Origin: an uncultured Paraburkholderia sp.
GTDB taxonomy: Bacteria; Pseudomonadota; Gammaproteobacteria; Burkholderiales; Burkholderiaceae
Reading direction: 5' to 3'
Assembly: GCA_940746715.1 (NCBI GenBank)
Contig: CALNWN010000012.1
Coordinates: 90,415-154,414 of the forward strand
DNA: 64,000 nucleotides
Position numbers and translations under genes: made by a program. Under the pieces are notes generated by a model. That model did not search any database and was not told where the DNA came from. It saw only the letters and a program-made list of their open reading frames with translations. Each line of letters opens with the position of its first letter. Within the stretch, counting starts at the first letter, position 1. Positions 1 through 7,300 of this stretch are shown piece by piece.

Positions 1-273
1 TATCGCGTTTCGGCAATCAATCTGTCGCGCGGTGCCAGCTTCTTGCCGAGTTGAAACCCGGCTCGCCGGTGCGGCTTTTCGGGAAAGGCGGGCAAATCGC
101 TATAGCTGGAACACTAGCCAGCGAATTTCTTTTTCCTGCGTCATAACCGCCTTCCATATACAAAATCATATACGCGACTTCCCGCCGGGTCAAGTCATTC
201 GCGACCCGGCGATGAGCTGTTTCGGTATCTGGAGGGCGTCTATTGCACCATTCGTCCGTTCGGCCAATCCAAT
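1..273. other. Non-coding stretch at window start
   Basis: No convincing gene. The listed ORFs here are short, low in similarity to anything I recognise and overlap both strands. The only structure is a perfect 9-bp inverted repeat (CGCCGGGTC at 183-191, GACCCGGCG at 203-211) with an 11-nt loop and no T-tract. It probably represents the region downstream of aroG. Confidence 0.5.
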
Positions 274-303
274 AAAAAACCCGGCTCACCGAGCCGGGTT
301 TTT
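274..303 (-). terminator. Rho-independent terminator of aroG
   Basis: AAAAACCCGGCTC-acc-GAGCCGGGTTTTT forms a long, nearly perfect hairpin with A/T tracts on both sides, so it can act in both directions. It lies about 40 bases beyond the aroG stop codon in the direction of aroG transcription. Confidence 0.9.
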
Positions 304-341
304 GTTGCTGCAAAGCGCGCCTTGGATGCTGACGAAGCCGA

Positions 342-1415
342 TCAGTTGCCGCTTCCGCGCGCCACGCGGCGCTGCTTGACCGCTTCCGCGAGATCTTCCG
401 GGACGGCGACGCTTTCATCCCAGCCGATGCACGCGTCCGTCACGCTCTGGCCGTACGTCAGCGCGCAGCCTTCCTGCAAATCCTGGCGGCCGGCCACGAG
501 ATGCGATTCCACCATCACGCCGACAATTCGTTCGTCACCCGAAGCAATCTGACGGCCGATGTCCGCGCACACCGGAATCTGGTTCTCGTGTTTCTTCGAG
601 CTGTTCGCGTGGCTCGCGTCGATCATCAGACGCGCGGCGAGCCCCGCCTTGCCGATGTCCGAACACGCCGCATTCACGCTATCCGCGTCGTAGTTCGGCG
701 TTTTGCCGCCACGCAGGATGATGTGGCAGTCCTCGTTGCCGGCCGTCGACACGATCGCCGAGTGTCCGCCCTTCGTGACCGACAGGAAATGGTGCGGCTG
801 CGAGGCGGCCTTGATAGCGTCGACGGCAATCTTCACATTGCCGTCCGTGTCGTTTTTGAAGCCGACCGGGCACGACAATCCCGGGGCGAGTTCGCGGTGC
901 ACTTGCGACTCCGTGGTGCGCGCGCCGATCGCGCCCCACGAGATCAGATCGGCGATGTACTGCGGGCTGATCATGTCGAGATACTCGGTGCCGGCCGGCA
1001 GCCCCAGCTCGTTGATGCGCAACAGCAGCTCGCGCGCGGTGCGCAAACCTTCGTTGATCTTGAAGCTGTTGTCCATATGCGGGTCGTTGATGAGCCCTTT
1101 CCAGCCCACCGTGGTGCGCGGCTTTTCGAAGTACACGCGCATCACGACTTCGAGTTCGCCGGCAAAGCGCTTGCGCTGTTCGACGAGACGCCCCGCATAT
1201 TCCATCGCGGCTTTCGTGTCGTGAATCGAACACGGCCCGATGATTACGATCAGCCGGTCATCCATGCCGTGCAGAATGCGATGCATGGCAGTGCGCGAGC
1301 TGTAGATCAGGTCGGACACCGCTTCGTCGCACGCGAACTCGCGAATCAGGTGCGCCGGAGGCGTGAGCTCTTTCAATTCGCGAATGCGGACATCGTCGGT
1401 GTTGTGCGGGGGCAT
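342..1415 (-). CDS. aroG: 3-deoxy-7-phosphoheptulonate (DAHP) synthase, class I
   Basis: Condenses phosphoenolpyruvate and erythrose-4-phosphate to DAHP, the entry step of the shikimate pathway to Phe, Tyr and Trp. The 357-residue protein is full length for the AroG/AroF/AroH family. The metal-site motif GPCSIHD is at residues 60-66, the substrate loop YFEKPRTTVGWKG near 95-107 and GARTTESQ near 165. I start at the ATG preceded by AGGAG (1415), not at the upstream ATG of the ORF track (1466), which would add 17 residues unlike the family. It stands alone behind an attenuation leader (1508-1700) and ends at its own terminator. Which aromatic amino acid inhibits the enzyme cannot be read from sequence alone. 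Confidence 0.96.
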   Translation of the reverse strand: MPPHNTDDVRIRELKELTPPAHLIREFACDEAVSDLIYSSRTAMHRILHGMDDRLIVIIGPCSIHDTKAAMEYAGRLVEQRKRFAGELEVVMRVYFEKPRTTVGWKGLINDPHMDNSFKINEGLRTARELLLRINELGLPAGTEYLDMISPQYIADLISWGAIGARTTESQVHRELAPGLSCPVGFKNDTDGNVKIAVDAIKAASQPHHFLSVTKGGHSAIVSTAGNEDCHIILRGGKTPNYDADSVNAACSDIGKAGLAARLMIDASHANSSKKHENQIPVCADIGRQIASGDERIVGVMVESHLVAGRQDLQEGCALTYGQSVTDACIGWDESVAVPEDLAEAVKQRRVARGSGN

Positions 1416-1507
1416 GTTGTTCTCCTGAATCGGTTCGTAGCGTGTTCGCGCGGGCGGCGCGTGCAAAACAGAATGTTCAAAGGCCGATTGGGCAAAGACC
1501 TGGGGGC

Positions 1508-1540
1508 GAAAAAAACCGCCAGACTCGCTGGCGGTTTTTC
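1508..1540 (-). terminator. Attenuator terminator of the aroG leader, with a competing antiterminator
   Basis: On the minus strand CCGCCAG-cgagt-CTGGCGG is followed by TTTTTTT, an intrinsic terminator about 90 nt before the aroG start. The segment CAGACCGCTGGCGG inside the leader-peptide frame (complement of 1583-1596) can pair with the terminator 5' arm and loop (complement of 1520-1534) as a 14-bp helix with one bulged A. The two structures exclude each other, as in classical amino-acid attenuation. A smaller helix, GGTGTT/AACACC, lies between them. Confidence 0.88.
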
Positions 1541-1565
1541 GGGAATTCTCGGTGTTCTACGTGCA

Positions 1566-1634
1566 CTAACACCCCTCTCGATCCGCCAGCGGTCTGAGAT
1601 ACCAAAAAAAGTAAAAGTAAAACTTGGCGGACAT
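1566..1634 (-). CDS. Aromatic-amino-acid leader peptide of aroG
   Basis: A 22-codon ORF (MSAKFYFYFFWYLRPLADREGC, shown here because it is the whole peptide start to stop in short form) has eight consecutive aromatic codons, FYFYFFWY: four Phe, three Tyr, one Trp. The frame appears only as the tail of a longer track ORF. It lies about 30 nt after a promoter and just before a terminator/antiterminator pair, in front of the first enzyme of aromatic biosynthesis. This is the standard layout of pheL/trpL-type leaders. No strong Shine-Dalgarno is visible upstream of its ATG. The stalling role is inferred. Confidence 0.85.
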   Translation of the reverse strand: MSAKFYFYFFWYLRPLADREGC

Positions 1635-1671
1635 GGCGAAATGGAGTCGCTGGTCAAAAAGGGTGAGTGAC

Positions 1672-1700
1672 TTTATAACCCGGGTAAGCGCGCCTGACAA
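1672..1700 (-). promoter_or_regulatory. Sigma-70 promoter of the aroG leader transcript
   Basis: On the minus strand TTGTCA (complement of 1695-1700) is separated by exactly 17 bp from TATAAA (complement of 1672-1677). This places the transcription start near 1665, about 30 nt before the leader peptide ATG. Confidence 0.8.
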
Positions 1701-1775
1701 GCGGCGCAGGCGGAAAATGCGGAAAACCCGCATACTCCCCGCGTTGTGTGCACGAAGTATGCGTCGGCTCAATTT

Positions 1776-3242
1776 TCAAGCGGTGCCGCCAACCGTCATC
1801 CGGTCGATGCGCAAGGTGGGTTGGCCCACGCCCACGGGCACGCTCTGGCCTTCCTTGCCGCATACGCCCACGCCCGAATCCAGTTTCATGTCGTTGCCGA
1901 TCATGCTCACGTACTTGAGCGATTCCGGGCCGCTGCCGATGAGCGTCGCGCCCTTCACGGGGTAGGTGACCTTGCCGTTCTCGATCATGTACGCCTCCGA
2001 GGCCGAGAACACGAACTTGCCGTTCGTGATGTCGACCTGGCCGCCGCCGAAGTTCACCGCGTACAAGCCGTTTTTCACCGACTCGATGATTTCCTGCGGA
2101 TCCTTGTCGCCGTTGAGCATGTAGGTGTTGGTCATGCGCGGCATGGGCAACGCCGCGTACGATTCGCGACGCGCATTGCCTGTCACCGGCATTTTCATCA
2201 AGCGCGCGTTGAGCGTGTCCTGGATGTAGCCCTTCAGAATGCCGTCTTCGATCAGCGTGGTGCACTGCGTCGGGTTGCCTTCGTCGTCGATATTGAGTGA
2301 GCCGCGGCGGTTCGGCAGCGTGCCGTCGTCCACCACGGTGACGCCTTTCGCGGCGACCTGCTCGCCGATGCGTCCCGCAAATGCCGACGAGCCCTTGCGG
2401 TTGAAGTCGCCTTCGAGACCGTGGCCGATCGCTTCGTGCAGCAGCACGCCGGGCCAGCCCGGTCCGAGCACGACCGTCATCGCGCCGGCTGGCGCCGGGC
2501 GTGCTTCCAGATTCACAAGCGCAGCGTGCACCGCGTCGTCGACATAGCGCGACAGCACTTCGTCGGTGAAATAGCTGTAGTCGAAGCGGCCGCCGCCGCC
2601 ACCGCTGCCGATCTCGCGGCGGCCGTTTTGCTCCGCGATTACCGTGACGGAGACGCGCACCAGCGGCCGGATGTCCGCCGCGAAGCCGCCGTCGCTGCGC
2701 GCGACGAGCACGACGTCGTATTCGCCAGCGAGGCCTGCCATGACCTGCTGGATGCGCCGGTCGCGGCCGCGCGCCATGTGTTCGATGCGCTCGAGCAGCT
2801 TGACCTTGGCGGTCGCGTCGAGCGAATGCAGCGGATCGGCGGGCAGGTACAGATCGCGCCCGGCAATGCCCGTCAGCGACGACGCCACCTTGATCTTCTG
2901 CTTGCCGCCGCCGGCCTTGGCAATGGCGCGCGTGGCGATGGCCGCCTGGCGGATCGCCTCGGGCGACAGGTCGTCCGAATACGCGAAAGCCGTGCGGTCG
3001 CCCGACACGGCGCGCACGCCGACGCCCTGGTCGATGCTGAAACTGCCCGACTTCACGATGCCTTCCTCGAGACTCCACGCCTCGCTGCGCGTCGCCTGGA
3101 AATACAGGTCCGCGTAGTCGACGCGATGCGTAAAGATTTCGGCCAGCGTGCGGGTGAGCAGCGATTCGTCGAGACCGTACGGCGTCAGGAGGATGTCCTT
3201 GGCGGTGGCGAGATTACGGATACCGGGTTCGATGATGTTCAT
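1776..3242 (-). CDS. tldD: TldD metalloprotease subunit
   Basis: Subunit of the TldD/TldE (PmbA) zinc protease, which degrades unfolded peptides and, in enterobacteria, matures microcin B17 and degrades CcdA. At 488 residues it matches the family length. The HExxxH zinc motif is visible as [11 protein letters not shown] in the middle of the protein, and the glycine-rich C-terminal domain ends in [10 protein letters not shown]. It is the last gene of yhdP-nit-tldD, a conserved order in Burkholderiales; E. coli also has yhdP next to tldD. Its partner tldE/pmbA is not in the window, as is usual. Confidence 0.95.
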
Positions 3243-3332
3243 GCGAAGTATGTTCTGCTCGATACGAAGGATTCGGTTAGCGCGACCGTCACTCCATGCG
3301 TGAGGCGCGCCGCAGTTTCAATGTCAATCTTG

Positions 3333-4241
3333 CTAGCTCAGCACTCGATGACGCCAGGCGGGCAGGCTCTGCCTCACCTCGTCGATGCGCGCGCGTTCGA
3401 GCGTTCCCGCGACCACGCCGGCGCCTTCGTCGCGCACCGCTACGATCTCGCCCCACGGGTCGACGAGCATACTGTGGCCCCAGGTGCGGCGGCCGTTCTC
3501 ATGCTTGCCGCCTTGCGCGGCGGCCAGCACGTAGCACTGGTTTTCGACAGCGCGGGCGCGCAGCAGCATTTCCCAGTGGGCCCGGCCCGTCGTGTAAGTA
3601 AACGCCGACGGCACCACCATCAGCGTGCAATCGCCCATGCGCCGGTACAGCTCAGGAAAGCGCAGATCGTAGCAGACCGACAGGCCGACACGGCCGAACG
3701 GCGCCTCGAAGGTGCGGACCTCGCCGCCGGGGCAGATGGTGCGCGCCTCGTCGAACGATTCCTCGCCTTTTTCGAAGTTGAACAGATGGATCTTGTCGTA
3801 GCGCGCGGCCTCGTTGCCTTGCGGGTCGAACACAAGCGTGGTGTTCAATACGCGCGACGGCTCCGGCGCCGTGATCGGCAGCGTGCCGCCGATCACACAC
3901 AGCTTGTGGCGGCGCGCGGCCTCGGCGAGAAAACGCTGGATCGGGCCGTCGCGGTAGGCCTCGCGCACGGCGAGCTTGTCGGTGTCCTTAAAGCCCATGA
4001 AGCAGAAGTACTCGGGCAGGAGGACGAGCTGCGCACCGTCTGCGGCGGCTTCGGCGATCAGGCGCCCGGCTTCGGCGAGATTGCGCTCGCGATCCGGCGT
4101 GCTCACCATTTGCAGCGCGGCGACGCGGAAAGTGCCCGGAGCGCCGCCCGCCAGCGCCCGCCCGGCAGCATGTGGCGCAGCGGCGGACGAGGCGTGGGAC
4201 GAAGCAGGGGACGAAGATGAAGGGACGTGTGTTTCGCTCAT
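3333..4241 (-). CDS. Carbon-nitrogen hydrolase (nitrilase superfamily amidase)
   Basis: The 302-residue C-N hydrolase has the Glu-Lys-Cys triad visible: Glu in LLPEYFCFMG, Lys in YDKIHLFNFE and Cys in GLSVCYDLRFPELYR. It most resembles the Nit1/NitFhit-like branch, where members hydrolyse deaminated glutathione or other omega-amides; the exact substrate here is an inference. The start is set at MSETHVPSSS (4241); the longer ORF-track start adds 27 residues without family similarity. A low-complexity Ser/Ala/Pro tail of about 35 residues precedes the catalytic domain, which begins at FRVAALQM. It lies between yhdP and tldD on the same strand. Confidence 0.88.
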   Translation of the reverse strand: MSETHVPSSSSPASSHASSAAAPHAAGRALAGGAPGTFRVAALQMVSTPDRERNLAEAGRLIAEAAADGAQLVLLPEYFCFMGFKDTDKLAVREAYRDGPIQRFLAEAARRHKLCVIGGTLPITAPEPSRVLNTTLVFDPQGNEAARYDKIHLFNFEKGEESFDEARTICPGGEVRTFEAPFGRVGLSVCYDLRFPELYRRMGDCTLMVVPSAFTYTTGRAHWEMLLRARAVENQCYVLAAAQGGKHENGRRTWGHSMLVDPWGEIVAVRDEGAGVVAGTLERARIDEVRQSLPAWRHRVLS

Positions 4242-4381
4242 GAGCGTTTCGGAAAACTCCCGACAAGGCGGCGCGACACCCGGCGCCGCATGCTCCGCCC
4301 GGAAAGTGCCCGCCGGCTGCACTGACCAGCGCGCTCGGGGCGCGGCGAGTCAGGCGGTCGGTTGGGCGCGCGGCTCGAAGC

Positions 4382-7300
4382 TCAGTTGGCGCCGACGGTC
4401 GAAGCTGGAGTGTCCATCTTACCCCGATCGCTCCTGACCCGCTCGATGTGCGGTTTCGACCACGAGCCCGTGATCGCGTATTCGCGCGCAAACGCGTGCG
4501 ACATCGATTTGCTGAACGCGAGGTCGGCCACCAACGCACCGAGGCCGAGCAGCGGATTGACCACGGCAGCCGCGACAACCGCCGCGCCTGCGCTGACCGT
4601 CGGCACGATCTGCACGTGCAGGTCCTGAGTCTCCTGCGCCAGATCGACCGAGCCTTTCATTTCCGCGCGCGCGGGCGCGGTCACCATTTCAAAGTTTTCG
4701 GTGCGGCCGATGCCGTTGCGGATCTGCGCCGTTCCGGTGACGTGCTCGAACGGCAGACCTTCGCCGATCACGTCGCGGAAATTGAGCGTCGCGAAGCGCG
4801 CGAGGCTTTGCAGGCTGAGCACGCCGAGTAGCTTCGCGACGCCCGGATCGACCTTGAGAATCTGCCCGTGGCGCAGATCCACGGCGACATTGCCGTTGAG
4901 CGTCGGATAGTCGATCGCGGTCGGGCCGCCGCGCCACACCATCTTGCCCGTCAGCGTGCCGCTGCCCGCCTTCAGCGTGCGCGGCTGGCCGAAGCGCTGG
5001 AGCAGGCCGCCCGCGTCCTTGATGTCGAGCTTGAAATCGAACACGGTGCGCCGCGGCGTGGTTTCGTCGGCGGTATTGCCGAGCTCGGTCGAGGTGCGCC
5101 AGTTGGCCGTCGCAGTGAGCGTGGCCGACGGATTCGCGATGTCGAGCTTGTCCAGTTGCCAGACCGGCACGCCGTCTTCGGTGAAGTTGTGCGCGGCTAC
5201 TTCGAGCCGCCCGATATTGCGGTCGCGCACGATCAGCTCGTTGACGACGAGATCGATCGACGGCATGTTCTGCGCCGGCGCCGAGATGGCCTGGCCGAGC
5301 AGATCCTTGTCCGCGACCGACGGAATCACCACGCGCGCAAAGCGCGCCTGCAGCGTGCCCGGCGAGGCCTTGTCGGCGCCCGGCAGCCACGACACGTGGC
5401 CCGACACGTGGTTGGACGCGATATTCGCTTGCCATTTGCCGTCCGCATGCGAAGCGCCGACGATCACGCTTTCCCAGTGGCGCTTGAGCAGCGTCAGGGT
5501 GCCGATGTGCAGCGCGAAGCGGCTCGGCAGGAATTGTGCGACGGTCGGGTTCGGGGCGGCCGGCGCGGCCGGCGTGGGCGAAGACGGCAAAGCGGCCGAA
5601 GACGGCGAAGCGGCGCGCGCTTCGTTGCTGCGCAATTGGGCAACGAGCGCGCGCCAAGCGTCGGCGTCGAAGGCGTCCACGTCGACCGCGGCGATCACGC
5701 CTTCGGACGGCAAGTCGGCCGGCCGGTTCACGCCGATGGCGCCGCGCACCACCGTCAGCGGGCTTTTCGGCTCGTAGTGCAGCAGATAGCGCGCGGCGAT
5801 GGGCCCGAAGTTCAGTTCCGCGCGCTCGAGTCCGCTTTCGCCGGCGAGCGTCGACGGACCGGCGGCAAGGCGCAGCGGCATGGGCGTGCCGACCGGCTTG
5901 TTGAACGGCGCGGGGAAGTCGAGCGCAAGGCCGGTCAGATCCGAGTTGGCGGTCACTTGCGGCAGCTTGCCCTTCTCACCGCGCACGGTCAGCGCATACG
6001 GCGCGCTGCCGCTCATGCGCGTGAGCACCTGCGCGGCCGGGCCATGCAGGTCGAGGCCGCGCGCGGCATCCACCGCGATATGGCCGCCCAGGTCGAGCGC
6101 GTAGGTGCCGTCGGGTTCGAAGCCGCCGCTCGCCCGCATGTCGCCGCCCAGAAACTGCGCGGTGAGGCGCTCGGTCTGCGCGCTGTGTTCGGTGAAGCGC
6201 ACCTTGCCCTTCACTTGAGAGAGCGGCGGCACATTCTCCACGCTCAGCCGATTGTTCTGGAAGCCGAGCGCGCCTTCCACGCCGATATGCGGTTTGGGCG
6301 TGCGCGGCACCGTCAGCTTGAGCGCGAGCGAAGCCGGCCCTTCGGCGCGAATCTTCTCGGTTTGATGCCGCGCCATGATGCCGAGCGAGCTTTCGTTCAC
6401 GTAGTCGAGCATGTCGGCGAGCGGACCGAGGCCGTCGCCCTTGATGACGAGGTTGGACTCGCGCGTGCCGAGATCGTCGATCCTGCCGTTCACGCCGCGC
6501 AACGCCACACGCTTGTAGCGCGCGCGGTCGATGTCGAAGCGCAGCACGTTCTGCCTGATTTCGAACACGCCGTCGATGCCGTCGAGCGGCGGCCAAACGT
6601 TCGGCGTGCCGTTGCGCATCTTGCGCGGCGGGTACGGCGTGGGGTCGAACTTGCCGCCCTTGAAAGGCGCGACGATATGGAAGATGCCCGCCTCGGGATC
6701 ACGCGAGTAGGGGAATTTCGTCAGGTCGCCGTGCACCTCGATCTTCGCGCCGTGCGACATGCCGGCCTGCAAGCCGTGGCCGAGATAGATGCGCAGCTTC
6801 TCGCTGATACTGGTCGGCAGATAGCGGACGATGCGCGACACCTGCGCGCGCTCGAAATCCGCCGTCAGATCCAGCGAGCTGCGGCCGTGGCCGGGGTTGC
6901 TGTAGTCAGCGCTGGCGGTGGCCGCGACGTCCGCGTTGGAGACGCCCAAGTCGGCCAGCTTGACCGTGAACGCCGGGTGCTTCTCGCCGGGCGCCTTCGG
7001 CGAGATGGTCCAGTCGGCACGGCCATGCAGGCGGTCGAGTTTCAGGCGCGGATCGTCGAATATGCCCGGCAGCGTGATCGCGACGTTGGACGTGTCGAGC
7101 GTCGCGCTACCGTGACGCTGATCGGCATCCACGCGGCCCCACAGGTTCTCGATGCCCGGAATGCCGGCGCGCGGATGATTGCACGCGGTGAGCCCGGGCG
7201 GCGGTTCCTGCGCGGCGATGCTGATGCCTTGCAGATCGCCTTGGAAGCGATAGCGCTCGATCGGCTCCGCGCCCGTCGCGTGCCGGTCGCCGCCGGGTTC

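Follow-up and report, generated by a model that had tools for sequence, protein, structure and literature searches.

A putative ribosome-mediated attenuator with a leader peptide rich in aromatic amino acids upstream of aroG in Burkholderiales

Results

Judged from comparative sequence evidence, the aroG switch of the Paraburkholderia DNA analyzed here is very probably a ribosome-mediated transcription attenuator. The same reading had been put forward in a preliminary description of this DNA, and it is supported by conservation in 80 of 80 Burkholderia sensu lato loci as well as in many families of Burkholderiales. Three sequence features by which attenuators are recognized occur together: end-product codons are clustered in a short leader, a terminator stands before aroG, and an antiterminator that excludes the terminator lies 3' of the control codons.

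The window, by which we mean the whole stretch of 64,000 nucleotides that was analyzed, is from a Paraburkholderia genome, the closest named match of its AroG being that of P. phenoliruptrix (99% identical). The aroG product is an NCBIfam AroG equivalog (585 bits), with AGGAGA at 1426-1421 on the minus strand. All parts of the attenuator lie in the interval from tldD (stop at 1776) to aroG (ATG at 1415), on the minus strand as well:

1672..1700, minus strand: sigma-70-type promoter, TTGTCA (1700-1695), 17-nt spacer and TATAAA (1677-1672), by direct reading
1654..1665, minus strand: segment 0 in the 5'UTR, CACCCUUUUUGA, pairing with 1581-1570 to form the outer protector in the MFE fold
1566..1634, minus strand: leader ORF of 22 codons plus TAG, MSAKFYFYFFWYLRPLADREGC, with ATG at 1634, by direct reading
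1626..1631, minus strand: segment 1, UCCGCC (codons 2-3), pairing with GGCGGA at 1587-1582, from the MFE fold and swaps
1602..1622, minus strand: control codons F5 Y6 F7 Y8 F9 F10 W11, with near-exclusively synonymous changes in 79 loci
1599..1601, minus strand: codon 12, Tyr in the window and Y, H or A elsewhere, from codon counts and the stall model
1583..1596, minus strand: segment 2, CAGACCGCTGGCGG, with its core CGCTGGCGG at 1591-1583, from pairing and conservation
1570..1581, minus strand: UCGAGAGGGGUG, the 3' extension of segment 2 and partner of segment 0, from pairing and alignment
1526..1534, minus strand: segment 3 core, CCGCCAGCG, common to antiterminator and terminator, from pairing and conservation
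1509..1538, minus strand: intrinsic terminator, AAAACCGCCAG-CGAGT-CTGGCGGTTTT (1538-1512), with seven T (1515-1509), from folding and compensatory changes
342..1415, minus strand: aroG, class I DAHP (3-deoxy-7-phosphoheptulonate) synthase, 357 aa, above the cut-off of NCBIfam NF006723

The promoter, the FYFYFFWY leader, the CAGACCGCTGGCGG segment and the intrinsic terminator are all present where the preliminary description had placed them. The TATAAA box does not vary among 81 aligned loci, and 77 of 80 loci have a TTG[T/C][C/A]A box in the -35 position. A consensus promoter/terminator scan of the window returned neither a promoter nor a terminator; both calls rest on direct reading plus conservation, and the T-run of the terminator is absorbed into A:T pairs of the stem. 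A strong hairpin with a T-tract (AACCCGGCTCGGTGAGCCGGGTTTTTT) is also found 3' of aroG, at 270-300 on the minus strand, and is presumably the terminator of the gene.

The leader translates as M S A K F Y F Y F F W Y L R P L A D R E G C stop, and its aromatic run (8/8) had no equal when the window was simulated 30 times with an order-3 Markov model: the maximum was 6/8 and none gave at least 7. The positions of the leader ATG and stop are conserved, and changes in the control codons are mostly synonymous: in 79 aligned close relatives, variation at codons 5-8 is exclusively so, and codons 9-11 add to it only one change of F to S, one of F to Y and three of W to G, with codon 11 being TGG in 76/79 Burkholderia sensu lato loci. 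Codon 12 is TAT in 49, CAT in 23, GCA in 6 and ATC in 1 of the 79 loci, and is probably no control codon, given the ribosome geometry of the stall model described below. As a control run, the FYFYFFWY of the preliminary description accordingly needs trimming: F5 to W11 is conserved, but codon 12 is Y, H or A, and among 42 diverse leaders Trp is present in 28, compared with Phe in 42 and Tyr in 41. The distance from the last aromatic codon to GGCGG is nearly fixed across families, with one value in 23/42 leaders and most others differing by codon steps.

The leader is devoid of a Shine-Dalgarno sequence, the energy of an SD-like duplex being about 0 at the leader ATG versus -7.4 kcal/mol at aroG, and anti-Shine-Dalgarno duplex energies revealed none at the leader ATG in any lineage tested. 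The leader peptide of C. glutamicum ilvBNC is likewise reported to lack a ribosome binding site (cited in PMC4046766). That the U-rich 5'UTR has a role in initiation at the leader is only a guess.

In the window, a 14-bp helix with a single bulge (-27.8 to -29 kcal/mol) joins segment 2 to CCGCCAGCG-A-GTCTG, and this antiterminator and the terminator, both containing the segment 3 core, are mutually exclusive. Of 200 dinucleotide shuffles of the leader RNA, 199 fold less well than the original (z -3.1). In an alignment of 52 sequences, the terminator carries compensatory changes at four pairs (CG to UA, AU to GC, GC to AU), with 97% of cells paired and a covariation score matched by 0/500 shuffles. 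The antiterminator core GGCGG:CCGCC is likewise paired in 97% of cells and tolerates single GU changes, and its flank shows two-sided changes (covariation score matched by 2/500 shuffles); moreover, own terminators pair better on average than swapped ones, with 2/5000 swaps as good, all of these shuffle and swap controls being ones that ignore shared ancestry. The 14-bp, one-bulge antiterminator of the preliminary description thus occurs in the window and some of its relatives, but at that length it is lineage-specific; what is conserved is a core of 5 to 9 bp, in which GGCGG:CCGCC is lengthened to 7-9 bp. The broader expectation expressed there, that leader ORF and helix should be conserved in relatives, was borne out, as the leader, the antiterminator core and the terminator are kept, with compensatory changes, in 80/80 loci and many families.

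A protector helix, which the preliminary description did not contain, is likely to exist according to the folding models. As folded, segment 2 is locked by the 5'UTR and codons 2-3, with the start codon in a bulge. The pairing probability of segment 0 averages 0.88 over 80 loci, and its duplex reaches -15.3 kcal/mol versus -12.7 +/- 0.29 kcal/mol for shuffled 5'UTRs; in swap controls, which again take no account of shared ancestry, the own partner of segment 0 beats swapped partners (1/5000), as does that of codons 2-3 (2/5000). The pairing of codons 2-3 with segment 2 is present in 71% of cells, and its column-wise covariation is not above control. Pairing in the protector would explain why GAUCGAGAGGG is invariant beyond the antiterminator while being unconstrained by protein: in the UCGAGAGGGGUG region, bases through GAGGG are unvarying in a 50-sequence alignment that includes loci with a shifted leader frame.

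These frame-shifted leaders represent natural experiments that separate codon function from RNA function. In six loci of Paraburkholderia and Burkholderia (L059, L061, L062, L066, L068 and L071), the frame is shifted 3' of the aromatic codons, giving, e.g., ...FWASQTAGGSRGV in place of ...FWYLRPLADREGC, and segment 2 is nearly unchanged, the sole difference being a C-to-T in L061. The stop codon in the six loci is at most a few bases from its original position, and in a further locus (L076), where a T has been deleted and a G inserted, the same TAG serves as stop. Codons preserved in the stall zone, bases preserved in the switch zone and a fixed point of termination fit the requirements of an attenuator.

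The leader is found 5' of aroG in 80/80 named loci of Paraburkholderia, Burkholderia, Caballeronia and Trinickia, and a covariance model detected exactly one sense-strand element per genome in 37/37 genus genomes, the second matches in these genomes being the same sites read on the other strand. Weak matches of the model in two genomes (G049 and G057) were taken as chance terminators, with no convincing leader ORF adjoining. Among 32 AroG loci from other genera of the family, 25 have leader and terminator, 1 is degenerate and in 6 none was seen; in other Burkholderiales families, an aromatic-rich leader precedes 17/40 AroG loci, and none was detected by the scan in 23/40. Three of the 17 (L172, L177 and L189) have terminator-like hairpins with loops longer than the limit of the scan. 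Outside Burkholderiales, a leader was present at 1 of the 20 AroG loci sampled (L201). The divergent peptides, e.g., MFASPARHFWFFYWDLTPLAD, MNRAYYFSFFFWFPSLPAKGRN and MRHTRAYFFWYFTRTSG, are all dense in F and Y and often contain W, and the same RNA plan follows 3' of the peptide across families. The attenuator is specific for one DAHP synthase copy: no such leader was found at paralogous DAHP synthases, including that of the window genome itself (L148), and none was found at pheA in the serC-pheA operon. Searches with Rfam covariance models gave no match above the gathering score in positions 1-6000 of the window and none up to E = 5 in the leader region, be it to a T-box, a Trp or Phe leader, a riboswitch or any other family.

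In a 1.2-Mb genome (G088), the attenuator is degenerate (L119): the peptide reads MLAKFYFIF before a stop, following a single-base loss in the aromatic run, and the terminator is mismatched. This suggests decay in a reduced genome.

The consequences of ribosome position were explored with a simple stall model, in which the ribosome masks the bases from -13 to +15, counted from the P-site codon. As long as segment 4 has not been transcribed, a ribosome stalled at codons 5-10 gives a probability of the 2:3 pairing, P(2:3), of 0.96-1.00, and one at codons 12-21 gives 0; when W11 occupies the A site, the protector re-forms. The edge of the permissive stall zone thus lies about where amino acid conservation stops. 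Once the RNA is complete and at equilibrium, the terminator wins or ties even with a stalled ribosome, so the switch must be kinetic and be decided during transcription. With the ribosome at the stop codon, 7 nt of segment 2 are free and P(2:3) is 0.78 in the model; this partial release during dwelling at the stop codon predicts leaky basal read-through.

Discussion

We infer that the leader is translated, that ribosomes stall in it, and that read-through into aroG depends on particular charged tRNAs. According to the proposed mechanism, RNA polymerase would begin transcription some 30 nt 5' of the leader ATG. In the absence of stalling, segment 2 would either be sequestered in the protector, formed with the 5'UTR and codons 2-3, or be covered by the ribosome up to the stop; being unavailable, it would allow the 3:4 terminator to form and aroG would be off. 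Scarcity of charged Phe- or Tyr-tRNA, and probably also of Trp-tRNA, would stall the ribosome at codons 5-11 and open the protector, and the freed segment 2 could then pair with the 5' arm of the terminator before the 3' arm is made, permitting read-through into aroG.

As to which amino acids count, the safest statement is that the leader is a Phe/Tyr sensor, with Trp input in the Burkholderia sensu lato lineage; sensing of all three aromatic amino acids is what we infer beyond that. On the tentative and most far-reaching reading, which we regard as possible although somewhat improbable, the attenuator would be an order-wide integrator, in which a single switch at the shared first step responds to three end products, graded by codon position (Phe and Tyr strong, Trp at the edge of the permissive window), with a leader that lacks a Shine-Dalgarno sequence and a conserved long-range helix that ties the 5'UTR to the end of the leader ORF. 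It is a serious possibility, falling just short of an even chance, that the same attenuator senses Phe and Tyr but not Trp, or nothing but Phe, and that the Trp codon is incidental. The frequencies of the three residues in the diverse leaders given above point that way, as does the stall model, in which stalls at codons 5-10 free segment 2 and one at W11 does not; however, Trp is retained in 76/79 leaders of Burkholderia sensu lato, and the simple model ignores the sterics of a hairpin closing around the ribosome. A response to Phe alone has a parallel in Corynebacterium, where the AroR leader, F-Y-F, answers Phe and not Tyr limitation (available text of PMC11802643); since this leader contains a Tyr codon, the presence of a codon is in itself no proof of sensing.

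The conserved features can also be read in ways that do not involve codon-level attenuation. A role of the leader peptide itself, by arrest of the nascent chain or in trans, would account for FYFYFFW being nearly fixed in Burkholderia sensu lato and has a counterpart in peTrpL of Sinorhizobium, a leader peptide able to act in trans (available text of PMC7298713). We consider this very unlikely, as outside the genus complex the order of residues is scrambled (YYFSFFFWF, FWFFYW, YFFWYF) with aromatic density and RNA segments kept, and the part 3' of the aromatic run shifts frame freely. It is highly improbable that the hairpin is merely the terminator of tldD, the aromatic ORF a by-product of a T-rich stretch and the aroG promoter located downstream of the terminator. 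The gene tldD does lie directly upstream of aroG, both genes facing the same way, in the window as in 80/80 close relatives; this synteny is lost, however, in 23/43 of the diverse leader loci, where the upstream DNA examined contains no match to tldD, and on this ground the explanation was rejected. Conserved promoter boxes between tldD and the leader, the synonymous variation of the aromatic codons and the maintained antiterminator pairing also speak against it. The long invariant stretch CUCA..CCGCUGGCGGAUCGAGAGGG in close relatives might further suggest a ligand-binding riboswitch that works independently of translation, which we find barely credible: two pairing partners account for the invariance, no aptamer-like fold is conserved across families and the aromatic codons are conserved at the codon level. 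A riboswitch or other known RNA family was rejected in view of the lack of any Rfam match.

Attenuation at the DAHP synthase step is not a new idea, being known in Corynebacterium and predicted in Acholeplasma. The closest known counterpart is aroR, the leader of the Corynebacterium glutamicum aroF operon, which encodes a DAHP synthase (Neshat et al. 2014; available text of PMC11802643, with the leader also in that of PMC4046766): it too is a ribosome-mediated attenuator with a mixed aromatic leader (F-Y-F), and its read-through increases on Phe limitation and is unaffected by Tyr limitation (PMC11802643). It differs in belonging to another phylum and in having three aromatic residues, none of them Trp, as opposed to seven or eight here. 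The single positive locus among the 20 AroG loci sampled outside the order argues for an independent origin of the Corynebacterium and Burkholderiales leaders. In Acholeplasma, the uORFC-13-1 motif, with Phe codon(s) and a terminator, is predicted upstream of aroF (PMC8632094); like the present element, it combines a predicted uORF and terminator 5' of a DAHP synthase gene, but it is restricted to Acholeplasma and environmental sequences, is a prediction only, and no mixed F/Y/W run has been described for it. The E. coli pheL-pheA and trpL-trpE systems share tandem end-product codons, antiterminator, intrinsic terminator and the protector, which is a likely one here, with the leader studied in this work (PMC11802643), but sense one amino acid each and control terminal branches. 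In Burkholderia cenocepacia J2315, 82 5'UTRs with short transcripts have been mapped, many of them with a terminator, and aroG is not named in the available main text of that study (PMC5688073). The literature searched, which was mostly openly readable and in which absence is no proof, contained no description of a leader at aroG for any member of Burkholderiales. Neither there nor in Rfam did we find the present attenuator family, with its broad distribution in the order and its leader dense in F, Y and W.

The switch would place the entry enzyme of aromatic biosynthesis under attenuation control across a large part of Burkholderiales, Burkholderia and Paraburkholderia included. E. coli regulates its DAHP synthases through the TyrR and TrpR repressors, so that a different regulatory logic, the direct sensing of aminoacyl-tRNAs for several end products at once, would apply to the same step here. 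Leaders without Trp, leaders with shifted frames and the missing Shine-Dalgarno sequence make the rules of multi-amino-acid attenuation testable, and the covariance model is ready for use with an attenuator family that Rfam lacks.

A second leader-like ORF, MFLNKKRSLISIDRGAWPWRRWSR, was observed upstream of trpE in the genome from which the window comes (L217; G000 contig C13, minus strand, near 113759). A crude scan detected no simple terminator at this ORF, and its motif TGGCCCTGGCGTCGCTGG is identical in most of the genus genomes searched.
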